The position numbers and the translations under genes are program-made. DNA of 64,000 nucleotides from Pseudomonas brassicacearum. GTDB lineage: Bacteria; Pseudomonadota; Gammaproteobacteria; Pseudomonadales; Pseudomonadaceae. How positions within the stretch are numbered: position 1 is the first letter of the stretch; each line of letters opens with the position of its first letter. Of this stretch, positions 1-20,545 are shown piece after piece. The DNA is taken from the NCBI RefSeq assembly GCF_000585995.1, contig NZ_CP007410.1, forward strand, positions 2,631,430 through 2,695,429. Reading direction: 5' to 3'. The notes beneath the pieces are model-generated. The model was not told where the DNA came from. It saw only the letters and a list, made by a program, of their open reading frames with translations, and ran no database searches.

Positions 1-773
1 TTAACTCCCTTTTACCGCTCATCGATATAGTGGGCGGTTCGGGCGTGCCCAATGTGCTGTTGCCCACTGACCGGGCTTCTCCGGTGATCCCGAAGCTGAA
101 ACTTTATCAGGCGCCGAATCCAGGGGAGCTGCTTGAACTCTACTGGGGCCAATACAATGGAGCCGTCGCCACTTATACCGTGCAGGCAGGGGATGTCGAA
201 GGCGCGGAAGTTTCGTTCTCCGCCGTATCCTGGGACGTAATCGACACAGAACCCAATAACACGAGATTGCCGGTTTACTACACCACCAGTAACGGGGTGA
301 ATGAACAGCAATCCGAAAATACTTATGTGCGAGTTCAAGTCACCACCATCGATGATTTGCCTGCACCGATTTTTGAAGATGCCGATGGTTTTGGTTATAT
401 CGGTTGCGAAGATAAACCGTGGGAAGGGATTCGGGTTCGCATCAAATTCGACAGCGGTCATTTTGCAACAGGCGACCAGATCCTGGTGTTCTGGCAAGGC
501 TATCGAGCATTCAATTCCACCGATCCAATTGCGGAAACCTACGGCGAGTTTCCGCAAGAGATAAGGCCTGAGCATATTCGTGACGGTTTTGTCGACGTCT
601 GGATCCGGCCCTTCGATCCTTACATAAAACTGGTGTCGCGAGGATCGTGGGGCGCCTATTACACACTGACCAAAACGGATGGACAGTTTGGCACTTCTCC
701 GGCACCCGAAAATTTAAAGATCGTTGAAACCGTTACGGAAGAACTGTGTGCCGCTTCTAGACATGAGGATTGA
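1..773 (+). CDS. C-terminal part of an Ig-like modular protein (5' end outside window)
   Basis: The frame is open from the first base of the window, so the gene starts upstream; the GTG at 30 is only the first internal start-like codon. The visible ~255 residues hold a probable Ig-like domain (to about residue 115) and a last domain with an IGCEDKPW motif and an LCAAS motif near the end. These two cysteines are the only ones visible, and the next gene (879-2846) ends with the same pair, so the two are paralogs. No membrane segment or secretion motif is seen. The family is not one I can name; function unknown. A shorter product from an internal start is possible but unlikely, given homology-like continuity across the edge. 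Confidence 0.75.
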   Translation, partial: NSLLPLIDIVGGSGVPNVLLPTDRASPVIPKLKLYQAPNPGELLELYWGQYNGAVATYTVQAGDVEGAEVSFSAVSWDVIDTEPNNTRLPVYYTTSNGVNEQQSENTYVRVQVTTIDDLPAPIFEDADGFGYIGCEDKPWEGIRVRIKFDSGHFATGDQILVFWQGYRAFNSTDPIAETYGEFPQEIRPEHIRDGFVDVWIRPFDPYIKLVSRGSWGAYYTLTKTDGQFGTSPAPENLKIVETVTEELCAASRHED

Positions 774-878
774 AAATCTACGAGCTTCTTGATGTCGGGC
801 TCGTTGGAAAGGCAATGGGTAGTCAGTATTTTAGCTATTCATGGATATATCTGATTGATATCTACCGGAGCTGAAAAA

Positions 879-2846
879 ATGAATGACCAGACCAAAAGCA
901 AGTTGACTGCTGCGCAGGCTCGCCAGGCCTACAATACGTGGTATTTGCATGAACGATCCAAGCAACTAGCAGATAAGTTGGATCCGATAATTATTCCGGA
1001 CTATTTTCCTGGATTCCCCGAATACACAGGGTATGTACCTCGGAGGCTGCAGGAAAAAGATCTTGAATTGCAGGTCGAGGAATGGCCAGAGCCAGCCGGA
1101 AATAACGAGACAGATGTACTCAGGATTTACGTCAGGCCCAAAGGGAGCGAAGAGTGGGGAGAGCCTACGGATACGCATGACGCTGTCGGGCCATTTCTTC
1201 CTGGCGACTTTCCCTATGATACCACCGTCGATGCTTCCGCTTTTGCAGAGGAAGGGACTTACGAGCTGATGTACACCGTATCGATCGAGTCGGGAGACAC
1301 TTCGGAATCTGATATAGCGGAGCTCCATATCGATAAGACTCCGCCCAATGACAATCAATCAGCTGTTGCTTTGGAGTTCCGAGATCAGGAGGCTAAAGAC
1401 AGCGGGTTGACCAGGGCCTACCTGGACAGTGTCCGTACGACAGGCGTGCCTATGATCGTACCTGGTTATACAGGCCGACGTAATCAGGATCAGATCGAAG
1501 TTTACATTAAGGTAGAAGAGGACATTGTTCCGAAACTGATATTTGATGAGGTGATTCCTAATAATCGGATAATTTGGATCCCGGTTATAGTCTTCATGGG
1601 TAAAGAAGATGGACTGCTGGCTATAAGGTTCAAGCTGAAAGATATCGTGGGTAATGTCGGTCCGGAATCGGTGCCTCTCGAAACTCATCTGCTGCTGCTT
1701 GATCCTCCTGTTGGGCCGTTCCGTCCCTTGAGAGTGCCGCTAGCGGAAGACGCCAAGACATTGATTGATCTGGCCGACGTTCGAGCGGGCGTCCGGGCCT
1801 TGGTGCCGCTCTATACAAACCACGGAAAGAACGATCGTATTTACCTGACGTGGGGCACGCATACGGCCCGTTTTCCCCACAGGGTAGGAATTAGTCCATC
1901 AGACCCAATCATTATTGACGTAAGCGATACTGAACTGATCGAACCGGATTACGGTGCCGCGACTGGCGAAAAACCGACGGCCGTTACCTATCAGATAGTA
2001 CGGGGCTACGACACGTACGATGCTGACAGCGCGCGGAACATCAACGTCGATTTATCTCAGGTCATCGACCCTAGCATTCTGCCAATGGTGGTTGTCCAGG
2101 GAGGTGGCCCAGCGCCAGAAGATAATAAGTTGTTGGTGTCCGACATCGGATTTAATGCAACGGCGACTTTCACAGTGCCTGCGGGTCTGGTCGGCGTTGA
2201 CTGGGCGAGGCTGTACTGGGGCGATCTACCCAATTACGTAGCTGAAGTAACACCCGTGCCGGCTGTAGGCGCTGATGTCATATTCGATGTGCCTTGGACC
2301 GAGATCGAGAAGGTACCGGGTATTGAGATTGGCGTGTGGTATGAGGTAGGTGTGACCGATGATAACAACCCTGCCTCTTCTCCCAAGACGCCAGTGAATG
2401 TAGAGGCGGCAGTGCCCATCAGGCTGGAAAATCCGGAGTTTCCTGATGCTCGATTCGTAAACAACCTTTGGTGGATCAATTGCTCGTCCTGGCTCGGTCC
2501 GGACGCTAACTTGCGGTTGCATATTCCACCGAATCCAAGGTTGACGGCAGGTCTGCAAATGGACATTACCGTACAGGGTTATTCCGATTTTCCACCTGTC
2601 ACCCCAGTGGGAACGCCTTGGACAATGTCGATTCCTTCACTGAGCCAATCACAAGTGGAGGATGGCTTTGTAGAAACGGTTGGGCCCAGGACCACTTATT
2701 TTGACGATCTGCTAGGGCGCAGGGGGGCGTTGAAGGTCGACTATACGGTGGTGGTCGGCACGTCGACCTTGTCAGGCACGCTTTCGATACGTGCCGCTTC
2801 GAAGGATGCGGCAGGTCTGTGTCCAATAAACCCTGATATTCCTTAG
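879..2846 (+). CDS. Ig-like modular protein, Cys-pair C-terminal domain
   Basis: About 655 residues from ATG 879, chosen over the longer TTG frame (855) because GGAG lies 7-8 bases before it. No signal peptide: the N-terminus is polar (MNDQTKSKLTAAQARQ). It consists of about five beta-rich Ig-like domains. The first ends in LHIDKTPPND, the counterpart of IHVKIDFAPPGG in the larger paralogs downstream. The only two cysteines are in INCSSW and GLCPIN of the last domain, matching the pair in the upstream gene, which suggests a disulfide or metal site. It follows the upstream paralog by 105 bp in the same orientation and may be cotranscribed. It looks lower in GC than the housekeeping genes here. 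Function is unknown; an adhesive or surface role is inference. Confidence 0.75.
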   Translation: MNDQTKSKLTAAQARQAYNTWYLHERSKQLADKLDPIIIPDYFPGFPEYTGYVPRRLQEKDLELQVEEWPEPAGNNETDVLRIYVRPKGSEEWGEPTDTHDAVGPFLPGDFPYDTTVDASAFAEEGTYELMYTVSIESGDTSESDIAELHIDKTPPNDNQSAVALEFRDQEAKDSGLTRAYLDSVRTTGVPMIVPGYTGRRNQDQIEVYIKVEEDIVPKLIFDEVIPNNRIIWIPVIVFMGKEDGLLAIRFKLKDIVGNVGPESVPLETHLLLLDPPVGPFRPLRVPLAEDAKTLIDLADVRAGVRALVPLYTNHGKNDRIYLTWGTHTARFPHRVGISPSDPIIIDVSDTELIEPDYGAATGEKPTAVTYQIVRGYDTYDADSARNINVDLSQVIDPSILPMVVVQGGGPAPEDNKLLVSDIGFNATATFTVPAGLVGVDWARLYWGDLPNYVAEVTPVPAVGADVIFDVPWTEIEKVPGIEIGVWYEVGVTDDNNPASSPKTPVNVEAAVPIRLENPEFPDARFVNNLWWINCSSWLGPDANLRLHIPPNPRLTAGLQMDITVQGYSDFPPVTPVGTPWTMSIPSLSQSQVEDGFVETVGPRTTYFDDLLGRRGALKVDYTVVVGTSTLSGTLSIRAASKDAAGLCPINPDIP

Positions 2847-2866
2847 GTCCTGAAAAAGTTAGGAAG

Positions 2867-2898
2867 CGGAAAGAAAAAACGCGGATTTTTTCTTTCCG
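2867..2898. terminator. A/T-rich perfect hairpin after the Ig-like gene
   Basis: A perfect 13-bp stem (CGGAAAGAAAAAA pairing with TTTTTTCTTTCCG) closes a 6-base loop, 20 bp after the stop of the 879-2846 gene. The A and T runs lie inside the stem, so it could act as a terminator on either strand. Just downstream, TTTGGGATTTTTC occurs twice (about 2939 and 2961). No gene is seen between 2847 and 3079. Confidence 0.5.
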
Positions 2899-3079
2899 TT
2901 GTTATTTCTCCAAAGGGTCGAGAAGTTCCGTTGATGAATTTGGGATTTTTCTTGGTTGTATTTGGGATTTTTCCTACACGCCGTGGGTAGTTGTTTAAGT
3001 ATCCTGCCGCCGCCTTGCACTTTGATTGCCGCTGAGTCGTGAGGAAGTGCACGTTTACTCTTACTTCAGGTCCATCACT

Positions 3080-5428
3080 ATGTATTCCTCGAATTCCACA
3101 CGATTGCTTTTGTCCGGTATAGCGCCGGTGTCTTGTTCCCTTGTTTTATCGATGTTGGTCAACACATCGGCGCAGGCCGACTTGGTAGGAAATGGCGAAG
3201 TCAGGGATGTTGCCCCAGGTACCCCGAGTGATCGCTACGAAGTTATCACCGGTTCCACGCTCAATGTGAATGGCGCCAATATCATGGATGTCATTTCAAG
3301 AAGCTCCACAATCAATGTCCGCCCGGGTAGTACGACCCAGCAGATATGGGCAAGTGAAGGTTCGCGAGTGAATCTTGATGGTGCCACGGTGACGGCCACG
3401 GGTACCGGAGGCATCGCTGGGGTGCGACTGGAAGCCAGTGAAGCAACGATCAACAACAGCACCGTGACCAATGCCAACGGGATTGGCCTCCACTTGTTGC
3501 AAAGCCTCGGAGTGGGATCGTCGGCGACGGTATCCAACAGCGTTATCAAAGGATCGGAAGGCGGCGCCTTCGCTTCGGCGTTGAGCACCTTGGATATCCG
3601 CAACTCGCATATCGAAGGTACGGGCGCCAATAGCTACGGCGTCAGGTTGTTCAGTGCCGACGCGACATTCACCGACAGCACGATTATCGGCGGCCTGAAT
3701 GGACTCGATCTGCGGGGCAATCGGCCACTTCCCCGCGAAGGCAACGTGTTGCTCGATGGCACGACCGTCGAAGGAAAAACCGGTGCCGCCATCCGTGTCG
3801 TGCCTGCCGGCGCCGCCTCCACGGTATTCAATATCAATCTGACCAATGGCTCGAATCTCATCGCAGGCAATGGCAATTTGCTTGAAGTTGTCGGCGGCGC
3901 CACGGCGAACATGGATGTGAGCAACAGTGGCGGTGTCGTGCTGAAAGGCAATATTGATGTCTCCGAAAACAGCACTGTCAATCTGAGTTTCGATCAGGGC
4001 CGTATGGAAGGTGATTTCATTGTCGAGTCCGGAAGTACCGGCACCCTGAGGCTCGCCAACGGTTCGTTCTTCAAAGGTAATCTGACCAACGTTTCCGGCG
4101 TGACGATCAACAGCGCTTCCGACTGGGAAATGGCTGGCGACAATACGGTTGGCGCCTTGGCCATGGACGGGGGAAGGGTGGTCTTCGGCGGTGCTGGTGA
4201 GTTCTATCAGTTGAATGTGGGCACCCTGACGGGCGATGGAACCTTCAAGATGGATGTCGACTGGGCCACCAATGAACACGATGTGCTCAATGTCACCGGC
4301 GTTGCCAGCGGGGCTCACGAGTTGCAGGTGAACGGTTCCGGCGTCGATCCGGCGTCTCCACAAGCGCTGACCCTGGTGCACACGGCGGCGGGCGACGCTA
4401 CCTTTGGCCTGGTCGGTGATCAAGTGGATGTCGGGACCTACTCGTATAAATTGGTTTCCGCCGCGAATGGTTCAGGGGGAACTGATTGGTTCCTCGACCC
4501 TGAGACGGCGACGATCAGTCCCGGTACCCGTACGGTCATGGCCCTGTTCAATACCGCTCCAACAGTCTGGCTGGGTGAGCTGACCAGCCTGCGCAGCCGC
4601 ATGGGTGAGTTGCGTTTCAACGCAGGCAAAACGGGTGCGTGGGGCCGTACCTATGGCAACAAGTACAATGTGGATGCGGCTTCCGGTACCGGCTACAAGC
4701 AGACTCAGCAAGGCTTCTCCCTCGGTGCCGACGCGCCGCTGCCCGTGGGCGATGGACAATGGCTCATTGGCGCGATGGCGGGTCACAGCAACTCTGACCT
4801 GGATTTGAGCCGCGGCAGTTCAGGCACCGTGAAAAGTTACTATGTGGGGGCTTATACGACGTGGTTGGACGCGGACACGGGCTACTACTTCGACGGTGTG
4901 CTCAAGCTGAACCGTTTTCATAATGAGGCGAAAGTCTCAATGAGTGACAGCCGCCGTGCCAAGGGTTCCTACAACACCACGGGCCTGGGCGGCTCGGCGG
5001 AGTTCGGACGGCATATCAAGCTGGACAACAACTACTTCATTGAACCCTATACCCAGTTCTCCACGGTGGTGATCCAGGGTCAGGATTATGGTTTGGATAA
5101 TGGTATGCAGGCCGAAGGCGACCGCACCTATTCTTTCCTCGGCAAGGTCGGCATGACCGGCGGGCGTAATTTTACGCTGGACGACGGCACGGTGCTGCAG
5201 CCTTATGTCCGGCTGGCGATGGCCCATGAGTTCGCCAAAAACAACGAGGTGAAAGTCAATAACAACGTATTCAATAACGACCTTTCGGGTTCGCGCGGTG
5301 AACTCGGAGCGGGTATAGCCGCGCAGCTCAGCGAGCGTTTGCAACTGCATGCCGATTTCGACTATGCCAATGGCAAGAATATCGAAATGCCGTTCGGCGC
5401 GAACGTGGGGCTACGCTACAGCTGGTAA
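3080..5428 (+). CDS. Autotransporter with pertactin-like passenger
   Basis: A type Va secreted outer-membrane protein of about 782 residues. ATG 3080 is preferred over the upstream in-frame start (3026) because it is followed directly by a signal peptide: MYSSNSTRLLLSG, a hydrophobic stretch, then NTSAQA with cleavage near residue 33. Residues ~35-450 are Ser/Asn/Gly/Thr-rich repeats typical of a right-handed beta-helix. A GALAMDGGRVVF...LTGDGTFKMDVD segment resembles the pertactin autochaperone region. From about residue 520 (TGAWGRTYGNKYNV) to the end is the beta-barrel, finishing in GLRYSW with the aromatic last residue expected for outer-membrane insertion. No protease triad or RGD motif was noticed. 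It is flanked by Ig-like modular genes but shares no sequence with them. An adhesin role is the family expectation. Confidence 0.9.
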   Translation: MYSSNSTRLLLSGIAPVSCSLVLSMLVNTSAQADLVGNGEVRDVAPGTPSDRYEVITGSTLNVNGANIMDVISRSSTINVRPGSTTQQIWASEGSRVNLDGATVTATGTGGIAGVRLEASEATINNSTVTNANGIGLHLLQSLGVGSSATVSNSVIKGSEGGAFASALSTLDIRNSHIEGTGANSYGVRLFSADATFTDSTIIGGLNGLDLRGNRPLPREGNVLLDGTTVEGKTGAAIRVVPAGAASTVFNINLTNGSNLIAGNGNLLEVVGGATANMDVSNSGGVVLKGNIDVSENSTVNLSFDQGRMEGDFIVESGSTGTLRLANGSFFKGNLTNVSGVTINSASDWEMAGDNTVGALAMDGGRVVFGGAGEFYQLNVGTLTGDGTFKMDVDWATNEHDVLNVTGVASGAHELQVNGSGVDPASPQALTLVHTAAGDATFGLVGDQVDVGTYSYKLVSAANGSGGTDWFLDPETATISPGTRTVMALFNTAPTVWLGELTSLRSRMGELRFNAGKTGAWGRTYGNKYNVDAASGTGYKQTQQGFSLGADAPLPVGDGQWLIGAMAGHSNSDLDLSRGSSGTVKSYYVGAYTTWLDADTGYYFDGVLKLNRFHNEAKVSMSDSRRAKGSYNTTGLGGSAEFGRHIKLDNNYFIEPYTQFSTVVIQGQDYGLDNGMQAEGDRTYSFLGKVGMTGGRNFTLDDGTVLQPYVRLAMAHEFAKNNEVKVNNNVFNNDLSGSRGELGAGIAAQLSERLQLHADFDYANGKNIEMPFGANVGLRYSW

Positions 5429-5454
5429 ACGCTGGAACTGACTGGAAATAACCC

Positions 5455-5484
5455 AAAGAACCCTGCCGCAGTGCAGGGTTCTTT
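5455..5484. terminator. Bidirectional terminator
   Basis: AAAGAACCCTGC and GCAGGGTTCTTT form a 12-bp perfect stem with a 6-base loop. It lies between the convergent 3' ends of the autotransporter (5428) and the minus-strand Ig-like gene (5503). The A/T flanks give a U-run on either transcript. Confidence 0.85.
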
Positions 5485-5502
5485 GCGTTTGAAGTGCTCA
5501 TC

Positions 5503-8500
5503 TTACCTCCCGATGCCCAGGCCCGTGCCGCTCGGGTTAAGGTCCCATAACCCCCATGTAGCGCCATTGGACATGGTCAGCGCATACATATACACCGGTG
5601 GTAATGGATACTTGACGCTGCTGGACCATGTGTAGGCGCCCCCCCAAGGCCAGCGGCCCCGGTAGGCGGCGCTGATTGCATTCAGCGTACCGAGATCCGG
5701 AACGCTCAAGCCACGTGAAGCGGCTACGTTGCGAATCGTCTGGTAATGCCCGCCTCCGAGGTTATGACATAGCCAGACACCAGTCACCGTAACGGTGTAG
5801 CTTTTCGACTGCGTTGGAGTGGCCGAGTCGGTCACGGTGATGGTCGTGCCGCCATTGCGGCGCACGGTCACCAGCCCGGATTGATCAATCTCGGCGGCTG
5901 CCGGGTTGCTGGAACTGTACCAATAGGGGGGTATGCCGCCGGTGGCGGTGTGGCGTACCGACGTGCCGCCGCCGAAATTGGGCAGCGCGGCGCTGCCGAC
6001 GAGCATGTAGGCCGCTCCACTCAATGTGACGGGGCTTTGATTGAAGTTCAACGGTGGCGTTGGCGCGCGTACGCTAAAAGTCCGCGGCTGTGAAATGGGT
6101 ACGTTGTCGCCATACAAGGCTTTGGCGGTCAGGCTGTAGTCTGCCGGGGTCACCGCCAGCTGTGGCAGGTGCCAGATACCCCCGGCATCCGCTGTGATTT
6201 CGGGGGCTGTCGTCGTGGTGCCAAGGATCTGCACGACCTGATAGGCACTGGCATTACCGCTCAAGGCCACTCGATTGTCGGTCGTGGTGGCACCGTTATT
6301 GAGTTCGCCGCGGGAGTCTCGAACGCTGCTGATACTCGGATTGACAACGCCCGTCACCGTGAATGACCGCGGTGCGGACGGCGGAACGCCTTGGCCATAC
6401 AGCGCCTCGACCACAACGTTGTAACGCTGAAGGGCCAAGGCGCTGAAGGTGGTACTCCAGACACCGTCGCCATCAGTCGGCTCTTCTGGAGCCGGCGTTG
6501 TAATCCCCGTGATTCTTACGTTCTGCCTGGCATTGGCTTGGCCTGTCACCGTGACTTGCCGATTGGCGGTGTAGCCTTCATGGATAATCTCACGCCAGAC
6601 ATCCCTGATACTGGTGATGGAAGGGGCGTTGGCGGCTTCTACGGAAAAAGTCCGTGGCGATGAAACAAAGCCGCTGCCGTCCAGGGCATGGGCGGTGAGC
6701 CGGTAAGATTTCACGCTCAGCGGGGACATGATATGAAACCAGGATCCATCGATGTCTACCGGTACGGTCGCTCCTGGCGAGCTGCCGTCGTAGAGCTGGA
6801 TACTGGAGTCCGGCGTTGCCGTGCCACTCAATCTCACACTGGTGTCGAGGGTGTTTTCGCCTTCACCCACTTCGCCCCAGGAGTCCCTGACACTGGTGAT
6901 CTCTGGAACGACCCAGTCATGATGGGTCTTGAAGGTGTAGCGGGTGAGGGGAAAGGTAAGCCCATAGATTTCTTCTGTTTCAGCGCCGAAGCCCACCTTG
7001 CACACCACGGTTAACGGTGTGTTGTGGCCGAGTCGTTCCAGCTCGGTTCGCAACGCCACTTCACTCAGGCCATTGGCGACCTGGCTGTCGTTCAGTTCAT
7101 GGCTGTCCAGCAATGCAATGGTGTAGCGCGTTCCAGTCTCAGTGTTGCCCTCAAGTCGAAACCAGATGCGCTGCTTGGCGGCAATGAACGGCCATTTTCC
7201 AAGGGTGACGTTGGCATTTGCGGTAAAGGTTGCCAGGTTCAACACCATCGTCGTGTCGTTTGCCTGGGTAATCCGTGGTTTGGGCAACTGGTGTTCCGGA
7301 TCCTGGAAGGCCAATACTTTCAGCGCCAGGGTTTTGGAAGGAAAGATGAAGCCTTTGTACGTCACCTCATAGCCGAGCATCACGTTACGGTTGATATTGG
7401 CGCCGACCACCGAGGCCGGGACGTTGAAACGAACGCTGCCGGTGGTACTGCCGGGCAATTCCAAATCATCGGAGGTACCCGCTCCGGGGGTACCCAGCCA
7501 ATTCAAATGAACCCCGTGTGGCTCATCCATGCTTGCGTATCGCACCTCTACCGTGGCGCCGGCGAGTGCATTCATCGGATCCAGCTCATCGGCGGGCGAG
7601 GCTTCGATCACCTCCGGCACGGGCAATTCGCCCAGCAGGTCACCGATGACCAGCTCAAGCAAGCCCGAATAGCGATACCGGCCGGTGAGTTTTTCAAGGA
7701 CAACATAACGAATCCGGACGATGTCGTTGATGTTCGGTTCGATGTACTTGCGCAGGATAGTAAAGTCCAGTGCCTTGCCGGCGCTGACCTGGGATATCGA
7801 TACCCAATCGCTGGTGCTGCCATCTCCAGGATTGCCATGCCAGTAGTAGGTGAGAATGTCGCCTTGGGCGGTGCCGAGGTAGCCGATACGCAGTGTCACG
7901 CTGCCGGTATGAATGTACGGGTCGAGTTTATTATCCGGCGCTTCAACGACCCGGGGCGCAGGGATGTCGGCACGGATGACCTGGACCAGGGCGTCGAGGA
8001 CGTCGGACTCCCTGACGTCATACACGACGGCGTTGTCGTTGGAGACCCAGTAGTTCAGTTTCAGGCTGCCTCCCCGCAGGACCTCGATGTGTTCACCGGG
8101 GACGAACATCACAATGTCCGTGCCGACTTCATTGTTGCTGACAATGTGCTCGTCTTCATGCAGGTATGGGCCTGCGTTGTTGGCCTTTTCACCCAACCAG
8201 ACCAGTTTGAGATGGTCGCCATCCTGCATTCCCGGATAAGCGTGGATGATCACTGTGGCGAAGGGCTGGTCCGGTTCGAGTGTGTCCCCAATCAGTTCTA
8301 TAAGGGTCGGCGCGGGTAGGACGGACACCTGCCCCTGGACGTTTGCAAAGGCGTGTTTGGATGACAGCGGAGGATCACCGTTGGCTTTTTCCAGGATATA
8401 GAATGCGTCGCCAGACCCGCCCGCCAGGGCACGGATTTCAGCGTTGGGAATCTCGAACTCATAGACGTAGGGCAGGTTGTCGATGACTTTGGATTGGCGG

Positions 8501-9486: not shown

Positions 9487-9547
9487 GGGGAACGTCCATT
9501 GGTAGGGGGCTGAACCCTAATCTGCTAGTCGGGTGAGGATTTGCCAA

Positions 9548-9563
9548 CTGTCAGGATTGACAG
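9548..9563 (-). promoter_or_regulatory. lux-box-like dyad upstream of the minus-strand Ig-like gene
   Basis: CTGTCAGGATTGACAG is a perfect 6-bp dyad with a 4-base centre, ending 61 bp before the start at 9486. It has the CT-N12-AG form of las/rhl-type boxes. The same arms with a different centre stand before three paralogs (9634, 12788, 16971). Operator function is inferred. Confidence 0.55.
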
Positions 9564-9633
9564 GTTGAGTCGCCGTTGGTCGGTTATGGCCTGGTTTGCG
9601 TATATCCGGTCAGCGGCCACGCTCCCTACGACT

Positions 9634-9653
9634 TACTGTCAACTCTGACAGTA
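9634..9653 (+). promoter_or_regulatory. lux-box-like dyad upstream of the 9713 gene
   Basis: TACTGTCAACTCTGACAGTA has perfect 8-bp arms. Its core CTGTCAACTCTGACAG matches 12 of 16 bases of the P. aeruginosa hcnA lux box as I recall it (CTGCCAGTTCTGGCAG). An AT-rich hexamer GAATAA is centred about 36 bp downstream, where a -10 element would lie if the box sits near -45. The start codon follows 59 bp after the box. Confidence 0.6.
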
Positions 9654-9712
9654 GGCACATCTCCCTTTCAGGCATTGAATAAACCCAGACCTCATCCGAC
9701 TGGGAGCCTGCC

Positions 9713-12661: not shown

Positions 12662-12689
12662 CAGGGGTCAAGCAGATAATTTGATCGTT

Positions 12690-12706
12690 TCCCCAAGAAA
12701 AGGGGA
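12690..12706. repeat. Small TCCCC/GGGGA inverted repeat
   Basis: TCCCC-AAGAAAA-GGGGA lies just after the stop of the 9713 gene. With the flanking GGGGACGCATTTATT it recalls the ends of Pseudomonas REP-associated transposase cassettes, but no transposase is present here. It could equally be a weak terminator. Confidence 0.25.
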
Positions 12707-12707
12707 C

Positions 12708-12870
12708 GCATTTATTATCCGCTTGGCGAACGGTTTGGAAGTGGATAACAGAACAGCGGCGAGACCCTACAGGACAATCCCGAGGAGTGCCTACTGTCAA
12801 CTCTGACAGTAGGCACATCCTCCTTTCAGGCATTGAATAAACCCAGACCTCATCCGACTGGGACCCTGCC
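12708..12870 (+). repeat. 163-bp upstream block, copy 1 (duplicated at 16891-17053)
   Basis: The 163 bp before the 12871 start are almost identical, base for base and equal in length, to those before the 17054 start. Only the last ~85 bp, from the dyad onward, are shared with the 9713 gene. The block holds the dyad, the GAATAA element and a weak GGGAC ribosome site (GGGAG in the 9713 copy). The genes therefore duplicated together with their promoters. Confidence 0.85.
12788..12815 (+). promoter_or_regulatory. lux-box-like 12-bp-arm dyad upstream of the 12871 gene
   Basis: Perfect arms TGCCTACTGTCA and TGACAGTAGGCA around ACTC, ending 55 bp before the ATG. The core is the same as at 9634, and GAATAA is again centred 36 bp downstream of the dyad centre. 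As RNA it would form a strong hairpin, so a post-transcriptional role is an alternative to an operator. Confidence 0.6.
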
Positions 12871-15800
12871 ATGGACACTGCCGACAACACCCCCCTGGAT
12901 TACGACGCGCTGGTCATTCCCGACGGCGGCCCTGCGCATCCGCCGGCTCCAGTCGACAGCGTCGGCATCAACATTGCTGCCGCCAAGCTCGTCTTTCCCC
13001 ACCAAGGGTTGCGCCTGCTTCTACCGCCCTGGGGGGACCGCATGGGCCGGGGCGATTCCTACAGGATCAAGTTGGGCCTTGTCCCCGTGTTGACGGGCTC
13101 TATCGATGAAGAGAGTCAGGTGGGCCAGTGGGTCGAGCGGTTTATCCCGGTAGGCGGGCTGGTCGATGGGGACTTCGACCTGAGCTACGACGTGAAAATA
13201 CTCGGGGACCCCGACTTCAGGCCTTCAGTGGTGACGAAGATCCACGTCAAGATTGACTTCGCCCCGCCCGGTGGCCCGGATCGGGATAGCGATACGCCCG
13301 GTCACTCCGCACTGATACTGAAGATCCCGGCAGAGTTCCTGCCACCCGGTGCGGTGGATCAAGAAGCTGCGAAACAAGGCGTTCCAGTGACCATCGAGCC
13401 TTACCCGATCATGGCCGAAGGGGATCGGATCAAGTTGTTCTGGGGTCGTGAACACGTCTGGGGAACGGTAGAAAAAGAACATTTGCCGCCACAGAACACC
13501 CCCCTGGTGATCACCGTCGATGAAACCACCATTGTCGAGGACACCGATGCCAACGGGCTGGCGGTGGTCTTCGAAGTCTATGACGTGGTGGACAACAAAT
13601 CCGACGACTTCAGTGCCGAAGTGCGGGTGATCGTGGACACCGGCAACTCGCGCTTGACGGCGCCGCTGGTCAAGGAGGTGTTCAAACTGGAACTGGACGT
13701 GGACCAGCTCGGCGAGGCGGACCTGACTTTTCAGGTGATCGCGGTGGATGCCAACTTCGAGGTGGGCGATGAAGTCGAGATGCATTTGACGGGCATAACG
13801 GCGGAGGGGGAAAAGATCGAAGAAGTCATCTTCGCGCCGGAAAAAATTATCGATGTCCCGAGTATTCCTGAGTTCAAACGCCCCAGCGCTGCGGTGCGAC
13901 AGCTGGCCGGCGGTCTCCATGCGGCTTTCTTCTACCGGCTGATCAAAGCGGATGGAAGCGATGACTTGATCTCCAAAATATTCTCCCCACGGATCGTGGG
14001 CCGGGCCAATCCCTTGGCAGCCCCGATTCCCCTGGACGAAATCGCCGGCACACTCGATCCACAACTGCCCAGTACGACCATCGAGATCCCGCTGGACCCG
14101 GCCATGGAAGAGGGCAATGCCATTGCGTTGATCTGGGACGGTATCACCGAGAGCGGCAGCCCTTACGAGCCCGACTTGCCCCTGCATCCGCTTAGCCAGA
14201 ACGAAGCGGAGGGTCGCGTGCCGATCGAAATCGTCGTGACCGGCGAGCACCTCACCGTCATTGAAGGCGGCACGCTCGATCTGTACTACAAGCTGTTGCG
14301 CGATGTGGTGAGCCGGGAAGTCATCGCAGAAGAGTCACTGCACGCTGACCTGCTGAGCATCGGTATTCCCCTGGCTGAATTGCCGCTGCCGGTAGTCGAA
14401 GGCGAGAACGACGGCGTGCTGGACCCGGCGGACAAACCGAACGGCACGCGCTTGATCGTTCGCCAATACAGCGGGCAAAAGGCCGGAGACCGGGTGCATA
14501 GCTTGTGGTGGGGGTCGAAAACCGGGCGGTATCGGGACTCGATTCGGGTGACTGAATTTACCGAGAACCAAGACCTCCCGTTCCCCATCACCGCCGCGTT
14601 GATCGAGGGGAATCGGGATGGCACGGTGCGGGCGATGTATTGGGTCAAGCGGGTTGCGGGTGGTACTTCTGCCTCAGAAATATTGCACATCAGCATCGGC
14701 GTGCAGGCGATGCCGACCCTCGATAACGTCAAGGATGACAAGGGTGCAGAAATTCCGGAATGCACTGAAACGGTCACGGCTACCGTTTCGGTAAACGGAA
14801 CGGCCAGCAAGGGACGTGATGTCGAGATCTACGATGGCAGCGGGCCAACGGCTGAATTGAAAGGTACCGCAACAGCTGACGCTGTGACGGGTATCTGGTC
14901 GCTCGCGGACATCGCGGTTGCTGAAGGAGGGCATCGGTTTTATGCCAAGGCGCTGTATAACACGGGTGGATCACCTTACTCGAATGTTCGGTTATTTACG
15001 GTGGGTTCGGTCCTGAACCCTGACGCCCCTTCAGTAAAGGAGGCTATCGGAGATCAGATCAACCTCATTGATGTGCCCAACGGCGCCACTGTGCAGATCC
15101 CGATTGAGGCTGCTCTCAAGGATGGCGACTCCGGCATGGTGCGTTGGGTTGGTCTGGCTGGCGTTGGCAGTATTGAGGTGCCCTTCAACGTCGTGGCCGG
15201 CGATGAGGGAAAGATCAAGGAGGTAACTGTTCCGCGTTCGGTGGTGGAGGCAAACGTCGATCGATCCATTACGTTGGACTATCTATTACAGCGCCGCGGT
15301 AGCGAGTCTGCGGTGCCTTCCGAGTCGGCGGTCTACGATGTAAGACAACAGGCAGGCTCCGGCCAGTTATTGGTCATGGGGGCGCGCGCTAACTCGTTTG
15401 GGTATTGGACGCGCCGCAGGGGGCCCATCTACCTGGTAGCGCTGGATGCAACGACGCGTCAGCCGCTCGAGGCGCTTTGGCAATATGAGGGGGAGGTGGA
15501 GGAGGTCAGAGCAAGCCGTTTCAGGGATACTCAACCCTGGCGGCTGTTGCGGGTACACACTACCAACGATCAGCTTCGACTAAACCCTGCCAATGTTTTT
15601 GCCAATGGGGACGCTTCCCTATTAGGACAACAAGCAGCTGCGTTTGCGGCTCGGCGCGATTGCGGGAACTTGGTGGGGTGGGGAATTGCCGGTTACGGCG
15701 GTTCGATTCCCGAGCCCATCGCTGCATTGAACGACATCCTTGAAGTAACAGGCGGCCTCGCTGTGTTTGTCGCACGAAGAGCCAATGGCCAAGTGGTGGC

Positions 15801-16302
15801 CTGGGGCGACAGGAATCATGGCGGCGTGGTACCTGAGCCGATCAGCGAATTACGTGACATCGTCGAGGTAACCAGCTCTCAATGGGCTTTTGTTGCACGG
15901 CGCGCCACTGGCCAAGTGATAGCTTGGGGCGACCGTGCATATGGTGGTAGTGTCCCCGAACCGATCGCCAACCTGAGCGACATTGTCGAGGTGACGGGTG
16001 CTCTACGTGCCTTTGCAGCTAGGCGCATCACCGGTCAGGTCGTGGCCTGGGGCTACCCTGGGGGGCCGGAAAGCAATCCACCAGGGGCTATCACCGATCT
16101 AGTGGACATCGTAGACGTAGCGGGCGCTAGCGCTGCTTTTGCTGTCCGCCGTGCCAACGGTCAGGTGGCGGCTTGGGGGGCAATGGCGGCGATGTCCCGG
16201 AGGCAATCTCCATGCTGGAGGACATCATCGAGGTGGTGGGTTCCAATCTGGCTTTTGCAGCGCGCCGTGCCAATGGTTGCGTGGTGGGCTGGGGCAGTGT
16301 GA
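12871..16302 (+). CDS. Ig-like modular protein, paralog 2, RCC1-like repeats, frameshifted near its 3' end
   Basis: 1143 residues as read. Residues 1 to ~611 are the constant Ig-like region, and a 619-bp segment (14042-14660) is identical by eye to 10890-11508 of paralog 1. Two further Ig-like domains run to about residue 830. From ~925 come ~45-50-residue RCC1-like repeats of the form FAARRANGQVVAWG..yGG..PEPI..L.DIVEVT. Five are in frame; at a run of six Gs (16175-16180) the frame shifts, giving ...WGAMAAMSRRQ and a stop at 16302. Four more repeats continue in the +1 frame to 16790. Seven Gs would restore a product of ~1306 residues. RCC1-like repeats usually fold as a propeller for protein binding. 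No signal peptide. Confidence 0.75.
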   Translation: MDTADNTPLDYDALVIPDGGPAHPPAPVDSVGINIAAAKLVFPHQGLRLLLPPWGDRMGRGDSYRIKLGLVPVLTGSIDEESQVGQWVERFIPVGGLVDGDFDLSYDVKILGDPDFRPSVVTKIHVKIDFAPPGGPDRDSDTPGHSALILKIPAEFLPPGAVDQEAAKQGVPVTIEPYPIMAEGDRIKLFWGREHVWGTVEKEHLPPQNTPLVITVDETTIVEDTDANGLAVVFEVYDVVDNKSDDFSAEVRVIVDTGNSRLTAPLVKEVFKLELDVDQLGEADLTFQVIAVDANFEVGDEVEMHLTGITAEGEKIEEVIFAPEKIIDVPSIPEFKRPSAAVRQLAGGLHAAFFYRLIKADGSDDLISKIFSPRIVGRANPLAAPIPLDEIAGTLDPQLPSTTIEIPLDPAMEEGNAIALIWDGITESGSPYEPDLPLHPLSQNEAEGRVPIEIVVTGEHLTVIEGGTLDLYYKLLRDVVSREVIAEESLHADLLSIGIPLAELPLPVVEGENDGVLDPADKPNGTRLIVRQYSGQKAGDRVHSLWWGSKTGRYRDSIRVTEFTENQDLPFPITAALIEGNRDGTVRAMYWVKRVAGGTSASEILHISIGVQAMPTLDNVKDDKGAEIPECTETVTATVSVNGTASKGRDVEIYDGSGPTAELKGTATADAVTGIWSLADIAVAEGGHRFYAKALYNTGGSPYSNVRLFTVGSVLNPDAPSVKEAIGDQINLIDVPNGATVQIPIEAALKDGDSGMVRWVGLAGVGSIEVPFNVVAGDEGKIKEVTVPRSVVEANVDRSITLDYLLQRRGSESAVPSESAVYDVRQQAGSGQLLVMGARANSFGYWTRRRGPIYLVALDATTRQPLEALWQYEGEVEEVRASRFRDTQPWRLLRVHTTNDQLRLNPANVFANGDASLLGQQAAAFAARRDCGNLVGWGIAGYGGSIPEPIAALNDILEVTGGLAVFVARRANGQVVAWGDRNHGGVVPEPISELRDIVEVTSSQWAFVARRATGQVIAWGDRAYGGSVPEPIANLSDIVEVTGALRAFAARRITGQVVAWGYPGGPESNPPGAITDLVDIVDVAGASAAFAVRRANGQVAAWGAMAAMSRRQSPCWRTSSRWWVPIWLLQRAVPMVAWWAGAV

Positions 16303-16790
16303 ATTCTGGCGGCTCAATTCCAGAGCCTATCGCCGCATTGGATGACATCGTCGAGGTGACTGGCAGTAGAGGTGCTTTTGTCGCACTGCGTGCCAGTGGC
16401 CATGTCGTGGGCTGGGGCGATATCACCTATGGCGGCGGAATCCCATTATTGATCCGCGAATTGAACGATATCGTCAAGGTGACCAGCAATTATGGTGCTT
16501 TTGCCGCTCTGCGTTCCAACGGTACAGTGGTTACCTGGGGGCATTCAGAATGGGGCGGTGAATCCAGTGCAGTGATCGATCAATTGGTCGATGTAAGGGC
16601 TATCTATAGCAATGCCGTGGCTTTCGTAGCGTTGACCGCAGACGGACGCGTTGTCACCTGGGGCAGGGCGGAATCGGGCGGCGACAGCGAAGCCGTCCAG
16701 GGCGAGTTACGCGGACAACTGTCCTACTACGCCACTGCGGCATCGCGCGGTGCTGTGCTCAAGAGGCAGGCTCGCGGTGGCTACTCATAG
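16173..16790 (+). pseudogene. Out-of-frame 3' part of the 12871 gene (RCC1-like repeats 6-9)
   Basis: This frame continues the repeat pattern without loss (LAFAARRANGCVVGWG, GAFVALRASGHVVGWG, GAFAALRSNGTVVTWG, VAFVALTADGRVVTWG) and ends YYATAASRGAVLKRQARGGYS. It has no plausible start of its own: TTG 16173 lies inside the repeat that spans the shift. It is therefore the displaced tail of the upstream gene. The join is two residues shorter than most repeats, so a 7-bp loss is an alternative to a single-base slip in the G-run. Confidence 0.8.
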
Positions 16791-16821
16791 CCGGATGGAG
16801 AAATAAATCAACCAACCTGTG

Positions 16822-16838
16822 AGACGCATCTCGCGTCT
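16822..16838. terminator. Short hairpin after the RCC1-like gene (weak)
   Basis: AGACGC-ATCTC-GCGTCT, 32 bp after the stop at 16790, without a clear T-run. Possible weak terminator. Confidence 0.25.
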
Positions 16839-16890
16839 TAATCCCGATCACGAATCCGCCAACAATCCAGATTTTGAAGATAAAGGGGGC

Positions 16891-17053
16891 GCATCTATTA
16901 TCCGCTTGGCGAACGGTTTGGAAGTGGATAACAGAACAGCGGCGAGACCCTACAGGACGATCCCGAGGAGTGCCTACTGTCAACTCTGACAGTAGGCACA
17001 TCCTCCTTTCAGGCATTGAATAAACCCAGACCTCATCCGACTGGGACCCCGCC
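16891..17053 (+). repeat. 163-bp upstream block, copy 2
   Basis: The counterpart of 12708-12870 with a handful of substitutions and no indel, ending at the ATG of the 17054 gene. Marks a tandem duplication of promoter plus gene. Confidence 0.85.
16971..16998 (+). promoter_or_regulatory. lux-box-like 12-bp-arm dyad upstream of the 17054 gene
   Basis: Identical to the dyad at 12788-12815 (TGCCTACTGTCA / TGACAGTAGGCA around ACTC), again 55 bp before the start codon. Confidence 0.6.
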
Positions 17054-20000
17054 ATGGACACTGCCGACAACACCCCTCTGGATTACGACGCGCTGGTCAT
17101 TCCCGACGGCGGCCCTGCGCATCTGCCGGCTCCGGTGGGCAGCGTCGGCATCAACATCGCTGCCGCCAAGCTCGTCTTTCCCCACCAAGGGTTGCGCCTG
17201 CTTCTACCGCCCTGGGGCGACCGCATGGGCCGGGGGGATTCCTACAGGATCAAGTTGGGCCCTGTCCCCGTGTTGACGGGCTCTATCGATGAAGAGAGTC
17301 AGGTGGGCCAGTGGGTCGAGCGGTTTATCCCGGTAGGCGGGCTGGTCGATGGGGACTTCGACCTGAGCTACGACGTGAAAATACTCGGGGACCCCGACTT
17401 CAGGCCTTCAGTGGTGACGAAGATCCACGTCAAGATCGACTTCGCCCCGCCCGGTGGCCCCGATCAGAACGGCGATACGCCCGGTCATTCCGCACTGAAA
17501 CTGACGATCCCCCCCGAGTTCCTGCCACCCGGCGCGGTGGACCAGGAAGCTGCGAAACAAGGCGTTCCAGTGACCATCGAGCCTTACCCGATCATGGCCG
17601 AAGGGGATCGGATCAAGTTGTTCTGGGGCCGTGAATTCGTTTGGAAAACGGTAGAAAAAGAACATTTGCCGCCACAGAACACCCCTCTGGTGATCACCGT
17701 CGATGAAACCACCATTGTCGAGGACACTGATGCCAACGGCCTGGCGGTGGTCTTCGAAGTCTATGACGTGGTGGACAACAAATCCGAAGACTTCAGTGCC
17801 GAAGTTCGAGTGATCGTGGACACCGGCAACTCGCGCTTGACGGCGCCGCTGGTCAAGGAGGTGTTCAATCTGGAGCTGGACGTGGACCAGCTCGGCGAGG
17901 CGGACCTGACCTTTCAAGTGGTCGCGATAGATGCCAACTTCGAGGTGGGCGATGAAGTCGAGATGCATTTGACGGGCATAACGGCGGAGGGGGAAAAGAT
18001 CGACGAAGTCATCTTCGCGCTGGAGAAAATTCTCAGTGTCCCGAGTATTCCCGAGTTCAAACGCCCCAGCGCCGAGGTGCGACAGCTGGCCGGCGGTCTC
18101 CATGCGGCTTTCTTCTACCGGCTGATCAAGGCGGATGGGAGCCCCGACCTGTTCTCCAAAGTATTTGCGCCGAGGATCGTGGGCCGGGCCAATCCCTTGG
18201 CAGCCCCGATTCCCCTGGACGAGATCGCCGGCACACTCGACCCACAACTGCCCAGTACAACCATCGAGATCCCGCTGGACCCGGCCATGGAAGAGGGCAA
18301 TGCCATTGCCTTGATTTGGAAGGGGGTCACCGAGACCAGCAGCCCTTACGAGCCCGACTTGCCCCTGCACCCGCTCAGCCAGAACGAGGCGGAGGGGCGC
18401 GTGCCGATCGAAATCGTCGTGACCGGCGAGCACCTCACCGCCATCGAAGGCGGCACGCTCGATCTGTACTACAGGCTGTTGCGCGATGTGGTGAGCCGGG
18501 AAGTCATCGAAGAGGAATCGCTGCACGCCGACCTGCTGAGCATCGGCATTCCCCAGGCTGAATTGCCGCTGCCGGTGGTCGAAGGCGAGAACGACGGCGT
18601 ACTGGATCCGGCGGACAAGCCGAACGGCACACGCTTGATCGTTCGCCAATACAGCGGGCAAAAGGCCGGCGACCGGGTGCATAGCTTGTGGTGGGGGTCG
18701 AAAACCGGGCGGTATCGGGACTCGATCCGGGTGACCGAAATTACCGAGACCCAAGACCTTCCGTTCCCCATCACCGCCGCGTTGATCGAGGGGAATCGGG
18801 ATGGCACGGTACGGGCGATGTATTGGGTCAAGCGGGTTGCAGGTGGGACCAGTCCGTCAGAAATTTTGCAGATGCGCATTGGCGTAGGCATGGATTTCAT
18901 AGCGCCCAGCATCAAGCAGGCGACCGGCACTGCGCCCAACCAGCAACTGAATCCGGTGGCGGCCAAGGATGCCTTGACCGTGGTGATTCCAGATTACGGT
19001 ATCCAGCCCGGCGATCAGGTCAGCGTCACCTGGACCGGCACTGCAGGCCCGGGTTCCTACACCAAGCCGACAGGTGATTTGCCTTCCAACCGAGAGATTG
19101 AACTGCCGGTCGAGGTAATCGCTTATAACTTGGCAAGGTCGGTGACAGTCACCTACACCGTGACCCGCGAGGGTAAGGAGTGGCCAGCGTCAGCACCACT
19201 GACCCTGAGCGTGCAGGCGTTCGCCGCGGGCGATCTGCCGACACCGCTGATTCGCGAAGCGGCACAGAGTGGCATTGGCAGTGAACTGGATCTGAACAGC
19301 TTCACCGGCAATGCCCGCGTCACGGAAGCGCCGTGGCCGCTGATTGCCGCAGGCCAGCGGGTCTGGTTGCGCTGCGAGGGCACCGCCAGCGATAACACCG
19401 ATCACACGATCACCCTTTACACCAATTCAGCGGTAAGCGGAAGTGAAGTGGGCGCCGGCCTCTCCAAGGAAATCCCGCGGGCCGAGCTTGCGAAGTTGCG
19501 CGATGGCTCCGCGCTCAAGGTGGTGCTTGAGGTCACGTTTAACCGCAGTAGCAACCAGAGCGAGGTCGTTGCGTTCCCACTGCGTACTTATATCGTCAGG
19601 GCCGTGGCATGGCTTACACCGACCCTCACCGATATCCGTGACTCTAAAGGTACTGTCGTGGGCGGCAGTACCGTGGAGACCAGCGTCACCGTCACGGGTA
19701 CCGGACACAGTGGTGAACGGATCCAGTTGATGGACGGTACGGCCAATATCGGCAATCCCGTGTCCATTTCTGCTGGTGGGACAACGTGGAGTACCCCACT
19801 CACGGGCCTGAGCGTCAAGGCCTACAGTATCAAGGCCAAGGCTCTCTATGGCTCGGGAATACCGGAGTCGGCCGCAAAAGCTTTCAATGTAGTGCCCCCT
19901 TTGAGCTTCGGGACGGCCTATAGGATGGTCACGCAAAATTACGTCATTGCGAAGGTCAAAATACCGAATAATCCATTGCCTGTTAATAACGCCAGCTATA

Positions 20001-20545
20001 CCCGTGTTGCAACAGGAGGCATTCCACCCTACCGATATTCATCAGCGAATCCTGAGGTCGCCGTAGTAGACAGTAGTTCGGGTTATGTACGTGCCGCCGG
20101 CAACGGAGATGCAGTGATCACCGCCACCGATCAGGATAACGCCACCGCCTCCTATACCATCACTGTTTCCCACGTAATGCAGGTGGCACTTCTCGGGAGT
20201 GTCCAGTGGGGACAGGCGGGAGTACTCGATTACCCCGTGTATGAGCTTCTCATTGAAAATTACAGGCCTGAAGGCTATTTACCTTCAATCATCCCAGGGT
20301 GGCCGAATAGTTGGTACTGGGCGAGGACGGGGCATATAGATGCAAGGTATGGAATGGTAAAAAATATGAGAGGTGAAGGGGACTATGAAGAAAAAACAAA
20401 ATTTTACCCTGCCCTGATGCATCTTCAGACCCGTGCCGAAATGCCCGAAGGCTGCGACTTTCTGGAAGAACATTCTGAAGAGGGCAAGGTGAATTCATCT
20501 TCCACTGGCGATGCTGACCTTCCCCCAATGGATGGCAATACGTAA
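17054..20545 (+). CDS. Ig-like modular protein, paralog 3 (Big_2 stalk and unique tip)
   Basis: 1163 residues. Residues 1 to ~611 match paralogs 1 and 2 closely. Then follow an Ig-like domain, the WPLIA..QRVWL module shared with paralog 1, and a domain starting PTLTDIRDSKG that matches the SxRD repeats of the 5503-9486 gene. Next is a Big_2-type domain with ATGGIPPYRYSSANP, nearly the same motif as in that gene. The ~110-residue tail (NSWYWARTGHIDARYG, then an acidic end) has no counterpart in the window. It is thus a mosaic: N-terminal half from the tandem family, C-terminal half related to the minus-strand gene. No signal peptide. Downstream is a REP pair (20641-20730). Confidence 0.8.
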   Translation: MDTADNTPLDYDALVIPDGGPAHLPAPVGSVGINIAAAKLVFPHQGLRLLLPPWGDRMGRGDSYRIKLGPVPVLTGSIDEESQVGQWVERFIPVGGLVDGDFDLSYDVKILGDPDFRPSVVTKIHVKIDFAPPGGPDQNGDTPGHSALKLTIPPEFLPPGAVDQEAAKQGVPVTIEPYPIMAEGDRIKLFWGREFVWKTVEKEHLPPQNTPLVITVDETTIVEDTDANGLAVVFEVYDVVDNKSEDFSAEVRVIVDTGNSRLTAPLVKEVFNLELDVDQLGEADLTFQVVAIDANFEVGDEVEMHLTGITAEGEKIDEVIFALEKILSVPSIPEFKRPSAEVRQLAGGLHAAFFYRLIKADGSPDLFSKVFAPRIVGRANPLAAPIPLDEIAGTLDPQLPSTTIEIPLDPAMEEGNAIALIWKGVTETSSPYEPDLPLHPLSQNEAEGRVPIEIVVTGEHLTAIEGGTLDLYYRLLRDVVSREVIEEESLHADLLSIGIPQAELPLPVVEGENDGVLDPADKPNGTRLIVRQYSGQKAGDRVHSLWWGSKTGRYRDSIRVTEITETQDLPFPITAALIEGNRDGTVRAMYWVKRVAGGTSPSEILQMRIGVGMDFIAPSIKQATGTAPNQQLNPVAAKDALTVVIPDYGIQPGDQVSVTWTGTAGPGSYTKPTGDLPSNREIELPVEVIAYNLARSVTVTYTVTREGKEWPASAPLTLSVQAFAAGDLPTPLIREAAQSGIGSELDLNSFTGNARVTEAPWPLIAAGQRVWLRCEGTASDNTDHTITLYTNSAVSGSEVGAGLSKEIPRAELAKLRDGSALKVVLEVTFNRSSNQSEVVAFPLRTYIVRAVAWLTPTLTDIRDSKGTVVGGSTVETSVTVTGTGHSGERIQLMDGTANIGNPVSISAGGTTWSTPLTGLSVKAYSIKAKALYGSGIPESAAKAFNVVPPLSFGTAYRMVTQNYVIAKVKIPNNPLPVNNASYTRVATGGIPPYRYSSANPEVAVVDSSSGYVRAAGNGDAVITATDQDNATASYTITVSHVMQVALLGSVQWGQAGVLDYPVYELLIENYRPEGYLPSIIPGWPNSWYWARTGHIDARYGMVKNMRGEGDYEEKTKFYPALMHLQTRAEMPEGCDFLEEHSEEGKVNSSSTGDADLPPMDGNT

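Follow-up and report, generated by a model that had tools for sequence, protein, structure and literature searches.

The question raised by this locus is what function is served by a cluster of large immunoglobulin (Ig)-like proteins that share a nearly invariant N-terminal part and carry different C-terminal ends. The locus lies at the left edge of a 64,000-nucleotide (nt) stretch of the Pseudomonas brassicacearum chromosome (hereinafter, the window) and contains, in order, the end of P0001, P0002, P0003, P0004 on the minus strand, and the tandem genes A, B and C (P0005, P0006 and P0007; Table 1). P0004, A, B, C and their homologs are denoted rods here, and their variable ends, tips. An original prediction, made from the DNA sequence, described a six-member family of modular proteins and interpreted them as polymorphic effectors or receptor-changing adhesins. 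The observation is partly confirmed and the interpretation partly supported by the present analysis: the rods belong to a genus-wide, unnamed family of tandem Ig/FN3-like modules in which a constant rod is joined to an exchangeable tip, and most of their genes follow a palindrome, absent from the original prediction, that they share with insect-toxin-like genes.

The modular build and the switch point are apparent in the alignment of the tandem genes. The DNA of A, B and C is 93.6-93.8% identical across the first ~1835 nt and diverges sharply after that; in 100-nt steps, identity is ~77-100% up to nt 1770 and falls beyond. The common stretch starts 5' of the start codon, with the palindrome included. 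At the protein level, the constant part comprises 609-611 residues that are 94-96% identical among the three proteins, a similarity not attributable to chance, in agreement with the ~611 near-constant residues followed by different ends noted originally. A fourth copy, D, is encoded ~150 kb away and stays together with C for 338 residues past the constant part (92% identity). The within-genome copies of the constant part are 93-96% identical to each other vs 84% at most to the ten homologs compared, which suggests recent duplication or upkeep by gene conversion, with the ends replaced meanwhile. The same pattern is found elsewhere: the constant parts of P0013 and P0015 are 99% identical, and those of P0020 and P0021 are 98% identical, with different tip clusters within each pair. 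The minus-strand gene P0004, also listed originally as a relative, aligns with the rod profile from residue 15 to residue 962 and has modules in common with A, C and D.

The constant region is not covered by any family in Pfam or NCBIfam, and our literature search found no description of the rod family, which could not be named in the original prediction either; the refuting condition set originally, membership of a family characterised before, thus does not hold. The newer Pfam entry PF26918, absent from the Pfam scans run here, is listed for C and other proteins and not for A, and is therefore not the constant region. The nearest named homologs come from Pseudomonas, with two weaker matches named Janthinobacterium and Xanthomonas. 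In a sample of 199 Pseudomonas genomes, one per species, 149 contain a match to the rod family at E 0.001, distant matches included.

An AlphaFold2 model of the gene A protein (50 sequences; mean predicted local distance difference test score, pLDDT, 81; predicted template modelling score, pTM, 0.45) contains a chain of approximately seven beta-sandwich modules, as counted from strands and sequence, up to residue 850. The pLDDT of the constant part is mostly 80-95, and the pTM value leaves the angles between modules undefined. Foldseek and VIA searches with the whole rod retrieved only generic Ig/FN3 arrays (complement, receptors, fibronectin), from which we conclude nothing beyond a rod; as modelled, an Ig/FN3-like array makes up the constant part. 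The tips are diverse, with the last 150 residues of 94 homologs falling into 25 classes. A Pfam scan of 29 proteins spanning all these classes detected Ig and beta-propeller families, along with uninformative matches to DUF3438, DUF5074 and FlaG, and no toxin family; some ends, that of A included, match nothing. The tip kinds that can be named are RCC1 or YncE-type propellers, Big_2 joined to a lectin-like domain and, by sequence look, a jelly-roll-like domain. Among the end types proposed originally, the RCC1-like repeats of B and the Big_2 and aromatic end of C hold, as does the difference between the ends; the jelly-roll label of A describes sequence appearance only, the model of this end (pLDDT mostly below 50) not being used. 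The end of D is propeller-like, with a Pfam match far under the cut-off. Structure prediction of the ends, which had been proposed as a check, was informative for P0004, the tip of which is predicted to consist of Big_2 and a lectin-like part. This tip resembles that of intimin by sequence, chiefly in its Big_2 part, and by fold, and intimin is the sole match that spans the 208-residue tip model among the matches listed.

The two shorter upstream genes, taken originally for members of the same family, appear to be more distant. The full-length P0001 protein shows a weak match to the rod profile (E 2e-10), and P0002 shows none at E 10 and a local match of 92 residues to rods (E ~2e-4); with 26% identity between them (E 4e-20), the two form, judging from these comparisons, a separate short-rod family. 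P0003, which lies inside the interval, is a pertactin-type autotransporter and not a member, and D lies outside the interval. The autotransporter and the short rod recur next to rods. We surveyed 21 loci from 19 genomes, with the 20 comparison loci picked among the best rod matches. Of the 21, 11 contain a P0003 homolog and 8 a short rod of the P0002 type; 7 of these 8 have the short rod and the autotransporter side by side in the same orientation, often convergent to a rod. The P. brassicacearum genome has four autotransporter places over the cut-off, which corresponds to ~0.25 expected in 21 such loci. By shared flanking genes, the 11 autotransporter loci represent about four genomic sites, namely an ABC-transporter site (L190, L200, L201, L202, L206), that of the window (with L189 and probably L197, through the neighbouring L196), a third site (L198, perhaps L204) and a fourth (L207), and hence are not 11 independent events. 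In a second genus, a Yersinia frederiksenii plasmid carries three consecutive genes, for a short rod (E 2e-51), for a rod (identity of 35% over 1197 residues; by eye, its last residues are RCC1-like) and for an autotransporter (29% identity, E 2e-29). This was the only one of 72,556 plasmid records that matched, and a plasmid origin of the rods was rejected. A phage origin was likewise not favoured (one match among 50,697 phage records, at 25% identity, in an unannotated 5.7 kb faecal record; the PHROG matches of rods are confined to the Big_2 part), and a role in anti-phage defence was rejected, given no PADLOC match.

The link between the rods and other genes is provided by the palindrome CTGTCA-N4-TGACAG. 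The window contains 4 perfect copies, against an expectation of 0.13 that already allows one mismatch, and another copy lies 113 nt before the called start of P0001; the genome contains 25 copies and none of the backward control. The tally of upstream sites (within 250 nt) covers the entire window and, besides it, L009, L010 and 20 rod loci from other genomes, with one rod counted twice because L196 and L197 overlap. With at most one mismatch, the palindrome precedes 36 of the 50 rods vs 10 of the 231 other genes (control, 0/50 and 1/231); the exact form precedes 25/50 vs 6/231, and the form with two mismatches, 39/50 vs 19/231 (control, 2 and 2). The 14-base form is present in 112 of the 199 Pseudomonas genomes (454 sites), the control being found at one site in one genome, and it occurs in 82 of the 100 genomes whose rod match reaches E 1e-20 vs 30 of the remaining 99, counts that ignore kinship. 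In a scan of GTDB genomes with an 18-base form, 79 of the 80 loci examined, out of at least 119 stretches, came from Pseudomonas and one from Streptomyces. The palindrome appears as a lux-box-type element at putative promoters of rod genes, a feature of LuxR regulons, and we infer that it is an operator. Two other candidates for its identity were dropped, namely the SrpA site, NTATC-N(0,9)-GATAN (PMC5945682), and the cep box, the consensus of which differs (PMC1766932). The motif is not mentioned in the accessible parts of a compendium of P. syringae transcription factors (PMC7532196), and a term search of the accessible text of a survey of Tc proteins gave no matches (PMC5006985).

Insect-toxin-like genes are among those behind the palindrome. 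In this genome, 17 of the 25 sites precede rods (6), delta-60-type proteins (6), a Big_13 protein, two RHS proteins, a protein with VRP1 and Big_1 domains, and a ricin-type lectin. All three delta-60-type proteins scanned match DUF5122, the N-terminus of the VRP1 and Big_1 protein is Tc-A-like, and one of the RHS sites also faces, in the other direction, a ToxA_N gene of the dermonecrotic type. In other species, genes 3' of the palindrome encode VRP1 (L081, L084), RHS (L076) and Big_2 (L127, L133) proteins. In the Pfam-supported Tc/RHS-type examples, those of this genome included, the palindrome is 34-98 nt upstream. Only Pfam-supported examples are used here because 7 of the 85 sites in the 80 loci lack a called open reading frame (ORF) nearby and several of the best ORFs are doubtful. 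The rods may be co-expressed with insect-toxin-like genes through a common DNA switch.

Several individual palindrome loci show additional features. Delta-60-repeat (DUF5122-type) genes with an upstream palindrome are found in L060, where three are clustered, L058 and L069. In L063, the VRP1 protein (1287-4967), with Big_1 domains near its C-terminus, adjoins a 934-aa Big_13/Big_6 protein (5030-7834). The palindrome also precedes a DUF6124 gene (L010:14373-14885) and an aminotransferase gene (L009:12341-13522). A 174-aa protein with a weak SET-domain match is encoded 3' of the palindrome in L102 (3727-4251), and look-alikes of it recur in many of the 80 loci, from other species of Pseudomonas, where they follow the 18-base palindrome at ~103 nt.

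The core of the palindrome equals that of the afe-box, GCTGTCAA-NN-TTGACAGC, recognized by the LuxR-type regulator AfeR of Acidithiobacillus (PMC3759942), which directs attention to the LuxR proteins of Pseudomonas. The P. brassicacearum genome encodes four LuxR proteins with an acyl-homoserine lactone (AHL) domain (L209, L210, L211, L212). L211 is flanked by fpr on one side and, on the other, by a gene consistent with the 23S rRNA methyltransferase, which is the place occupied by subgroup A LuxR solos (PMC8546723). This subgroup includes PpoR of P. putida and Ppu16R; for the latter, direct evidence of gene targets is not reported in the part of that source considered here (PMC8546723); a PpoR microarray yielded putative targets, direct or indirect (PMC2703642). 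A homolog of L211 at E 1e-40 is present in 92 of the 112 palindrome-positive vs 13 of the 87 palindrome-negative genomes; these 105 genomes were assigned by E-value without a synteny check. Among the 20 remaining positives, 19 have, by synteny, a protein at the fpr/methyltransferase place, which consists of the helix-turn-helix (HTH) domain only (roughly 77-130 residues) in 14, is divergent in 3, partial in 1 and broken in 1; in G166, which has one palindrome, no regulator locus was found. At least 25 of the 74 remaining negatives also have a protein at this place (the best 30 loci were fetched). An HTH-only protein replaces the full LuxR solo in many species (L219-L239, L243-L249). The palindrome hence almost never occurs where the subgroup A locus is missing, and the HTH domain appears to be kept where the sensor domain is lost, which is a lead, not proof, that a subgroup A LuxR-type solo reads the palindrome, as we infer.

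Taken together, these observations suggest that the rods are binding or attachment proteins of a host- or neighbour-directed arsenal, with a constant rod and swappable tips, a reading to which we assign an even chance. Under this reading, several rods with the same base and different tips would be made together, such that a cell presents several binding specificities at once; the palindrome would serve as the operator for the subgroup A LuxR solo encoded between fpr and the 23S rRNA methyltransferase gene; the rods would leave the cytoplasm by lysis or through some other route, with the partner autotransporter as a possible end point; and the ligands of the tips would be glycans or surface proteins of other organisms. 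A bolder version, which we regard as rather unlikely to hold in full, is that subgroup A solos control a genus-wide, palindrome-marked arsenal of Tc/RHS-type proteins, propellers and tip-swapping Ig rods, and that the short rod and the pertactin-type autotransporter are a new export or display device that places signal-less rods on the surface, with one cell showing different tips. If the proposed reading is right, a large uncharacterised family would acquire a known build, together with a genetic partner and a switch for its regulation; the palindrome would provide an orphan class of LuxR solos with candidate targets and tie signal perception to insect-toxin-like genes; and the paired autotransporter would make the exit of large signal-less proteins from Pseudomonas cells testable.

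Three other functions can be considered. The sharp switch from a constant N-terminus to variable ends, and a palindrome common to RHS and VRP1 (Tc-like) genes, would fit polymorphic effectors in which the constant part delivers C-terminal toxins. However, the constant region has no Pfam or NCBIfam match to a known delivery domain, and the ends that can be named are Ig, propeller or lectin-like; because the Pfam scan of the ends gave no toxin family, we rejected this as the principal interpretation and consider it highly improbable, although ends that match no Pfam family could still be toxins of a new kind and immunity genes were not searched for. Of the original alternatives, it is the adhesin that gains support, from the Ig array, the binding-type folds and the intimin-like tip. 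Alternatively, the rods could be structural proteins of the biofilm or of self-aggregates that are released by lysis and bind the cell's own polysaccharides. Ig arrays with carbohydrate-binding-like tips suit a matrix, the partner autotransporter could be a surface receptor, and release by lysis is compatible with the lack of a signal peptide. In such a matrix, however, neither the diversity of tips within one genome (A, B, C and D all differ) nor a palindrome in common with toxin-like genes would be expected, and we find this function unlikely. Finally, propeller and Ig proteins could act as scaffolds that stay inside the cell and are co-regulated with toxins. This possibility is consistent with the low cysteine content of the rods (2.4 per 1000 residues) and with the absence, already noted in the original prediction, of an apparent signal peptide in A, B, C, P0004 and the short rods by hydropathy, a crude check; it is quite improbable given that rods are paired with an outer-membrane autotransporter in 11 of the 21 loci and in a second genus, and given the intimin-like tip.

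Several findings weigh against the reading of the rods as LuxR-controlled attachment proteins. No export signal was found, and recurrent neighbours, viewed by eye without a family scan, include no other secretion gene; the surveyed loci are non-random best matches, and those with the autotransporter come from only about four sites; and the lectin half of the P0004 tip model includes a long low-confidence stretch (164-199). The palindrome is missing, within one mismatch, at 14 of the 50 rods, is absent from the Yersinia plasmid locus and, in its exact form, is not found close before the autotransporter in the surveyed rod loci; 8 of the 25 genomic sites precede aminotransferase, DUF6124, cold-shock, bestrophin-like, small or unclear ORFs, or none. 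In total, 111 of the 112 palindrome-positive vs at least 38 of the 87 palindrome-negative genomes have the regulator locus, and this co-occurrence is confounded by phylogeny. The latter two points, together with the lack of a palindrome within three mismatches in the 3.4 kb locus of L211 itself, leave close to an even chance that the palindrome is read by another LuxR protein or by a regulator of another family. Against this alternative stand the nearly universal presence of the subgroup A locus or an L211 homolog in palindrome-positive genomes and the rarity of L210 and L212, which were rejected as general regulators because, with 14 and 9 of the 199 genomes, respectively, they are too few to serve 112 palindrome genomes; the counts cover L210, L211 and L212, the fourth protein, L209, being located beside a LuxI-like gene.

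The features of the locus are listed in Table 1. Gene B reads as frameshifted inside its RCC1 repeats, which points to a broken gene or an assembly error.

Table 1. Features of the rod locus; positions are those of the window unless a contig or locus is given.
Feature	Position	Strand	Description
Window	G000:C1:2631430-2695429		Genome of 6.65 Mb, single contig
P0001, short rod, 3' end	3..773	+	Whole gene 657 aa at L009:13800-15773
P0002, short rod, 663 aa	855..2846	+	Directly upstream of P0003
P0003, pertactin-type autotransporter, 800 aa	3026..5428	+	Pfam PF03797 and PF03212
P0004, rod, 1327 aa	5503..9486	-	Ig-like modules, Big_2, then lectin-like tip
P0004, C-terminal 208 residues	5506..6129	-	Modelled alone; predicted Big_2 and C-type-lectin-like start
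Palindrome CTGTCAGGATTGACAG	9548..9563		62 nt before P0004
Palindrome CTGTCAACTCTGACAG	9636..9651		62 nt before gene A
Gene A (P0005), 982 aa	9713..12661	+	Constant residues 1-611, two more modules, jelly-roll-like end (by sequence look)
Palindrome	12794..12809		62 nt before gene B
Gene B (P0006), 1143 aa as read	12871..16302	+	Constant residues 1-609, Ig module(s), RCC1-like repeats
P0008	16173..16790	+	RCC1 repeats of B carried on in another frame
Palindrome	16977..16992		62 nt before gene C
Gene C (P0007), 1163 aa	17054..20545	+	Constant residues 1-609, further modules, Big_2, divergent aromatic tip
Gene D, fourth copy	G000:C1:2797046		Same constant part, weakly propeller-like end

The rods resemble several known systems in part. 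With the intimin/invasin inverse autotransporters they share an Ig-like stalk that ends in Big_2 and a C-type-lectin-like tip, a likeness that applies to the tip of P0004 only and is partly of low confidence in the lectin half; unlike intimin and invasin, P0004-P0007 show no N-terminal outer-membrane barrel (Pfam and NCBIfam) or signal (hydropathy), the rod is built of another, uncatalogued family of Ig-like modules, and the tips vary between paralogs. Compared with two-partner secretion exoproteins, the rods have no match to the N-terminal secretion domain in Pfam or NCBIfam. The pertactin-type autotransporters are represented by the conserved neighbour P0003, whereas the rods themselves lack the autotransporter domain (Pfam). 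As in polymorphic toxin systems, a constant N-terminal part is followed by a sharply variable C-terminal part in several paralogs per genome, but the scanned ends contain no toxin family, with the immunity genes outside the search. The palindrome shares its CTGTCA-N4-TGACAG core with the afe-box (PMC3759942), which belongs to another bacterium and regulator. Finally, VRP1, RHS and other Tc domains are absent from the rods (Pfam and NCBIfam) and are found only in other palindrome genes, but the rods are similar to the Tc and RHS proteins of Pseudomonas in their large size and in the same palindrome upstream.
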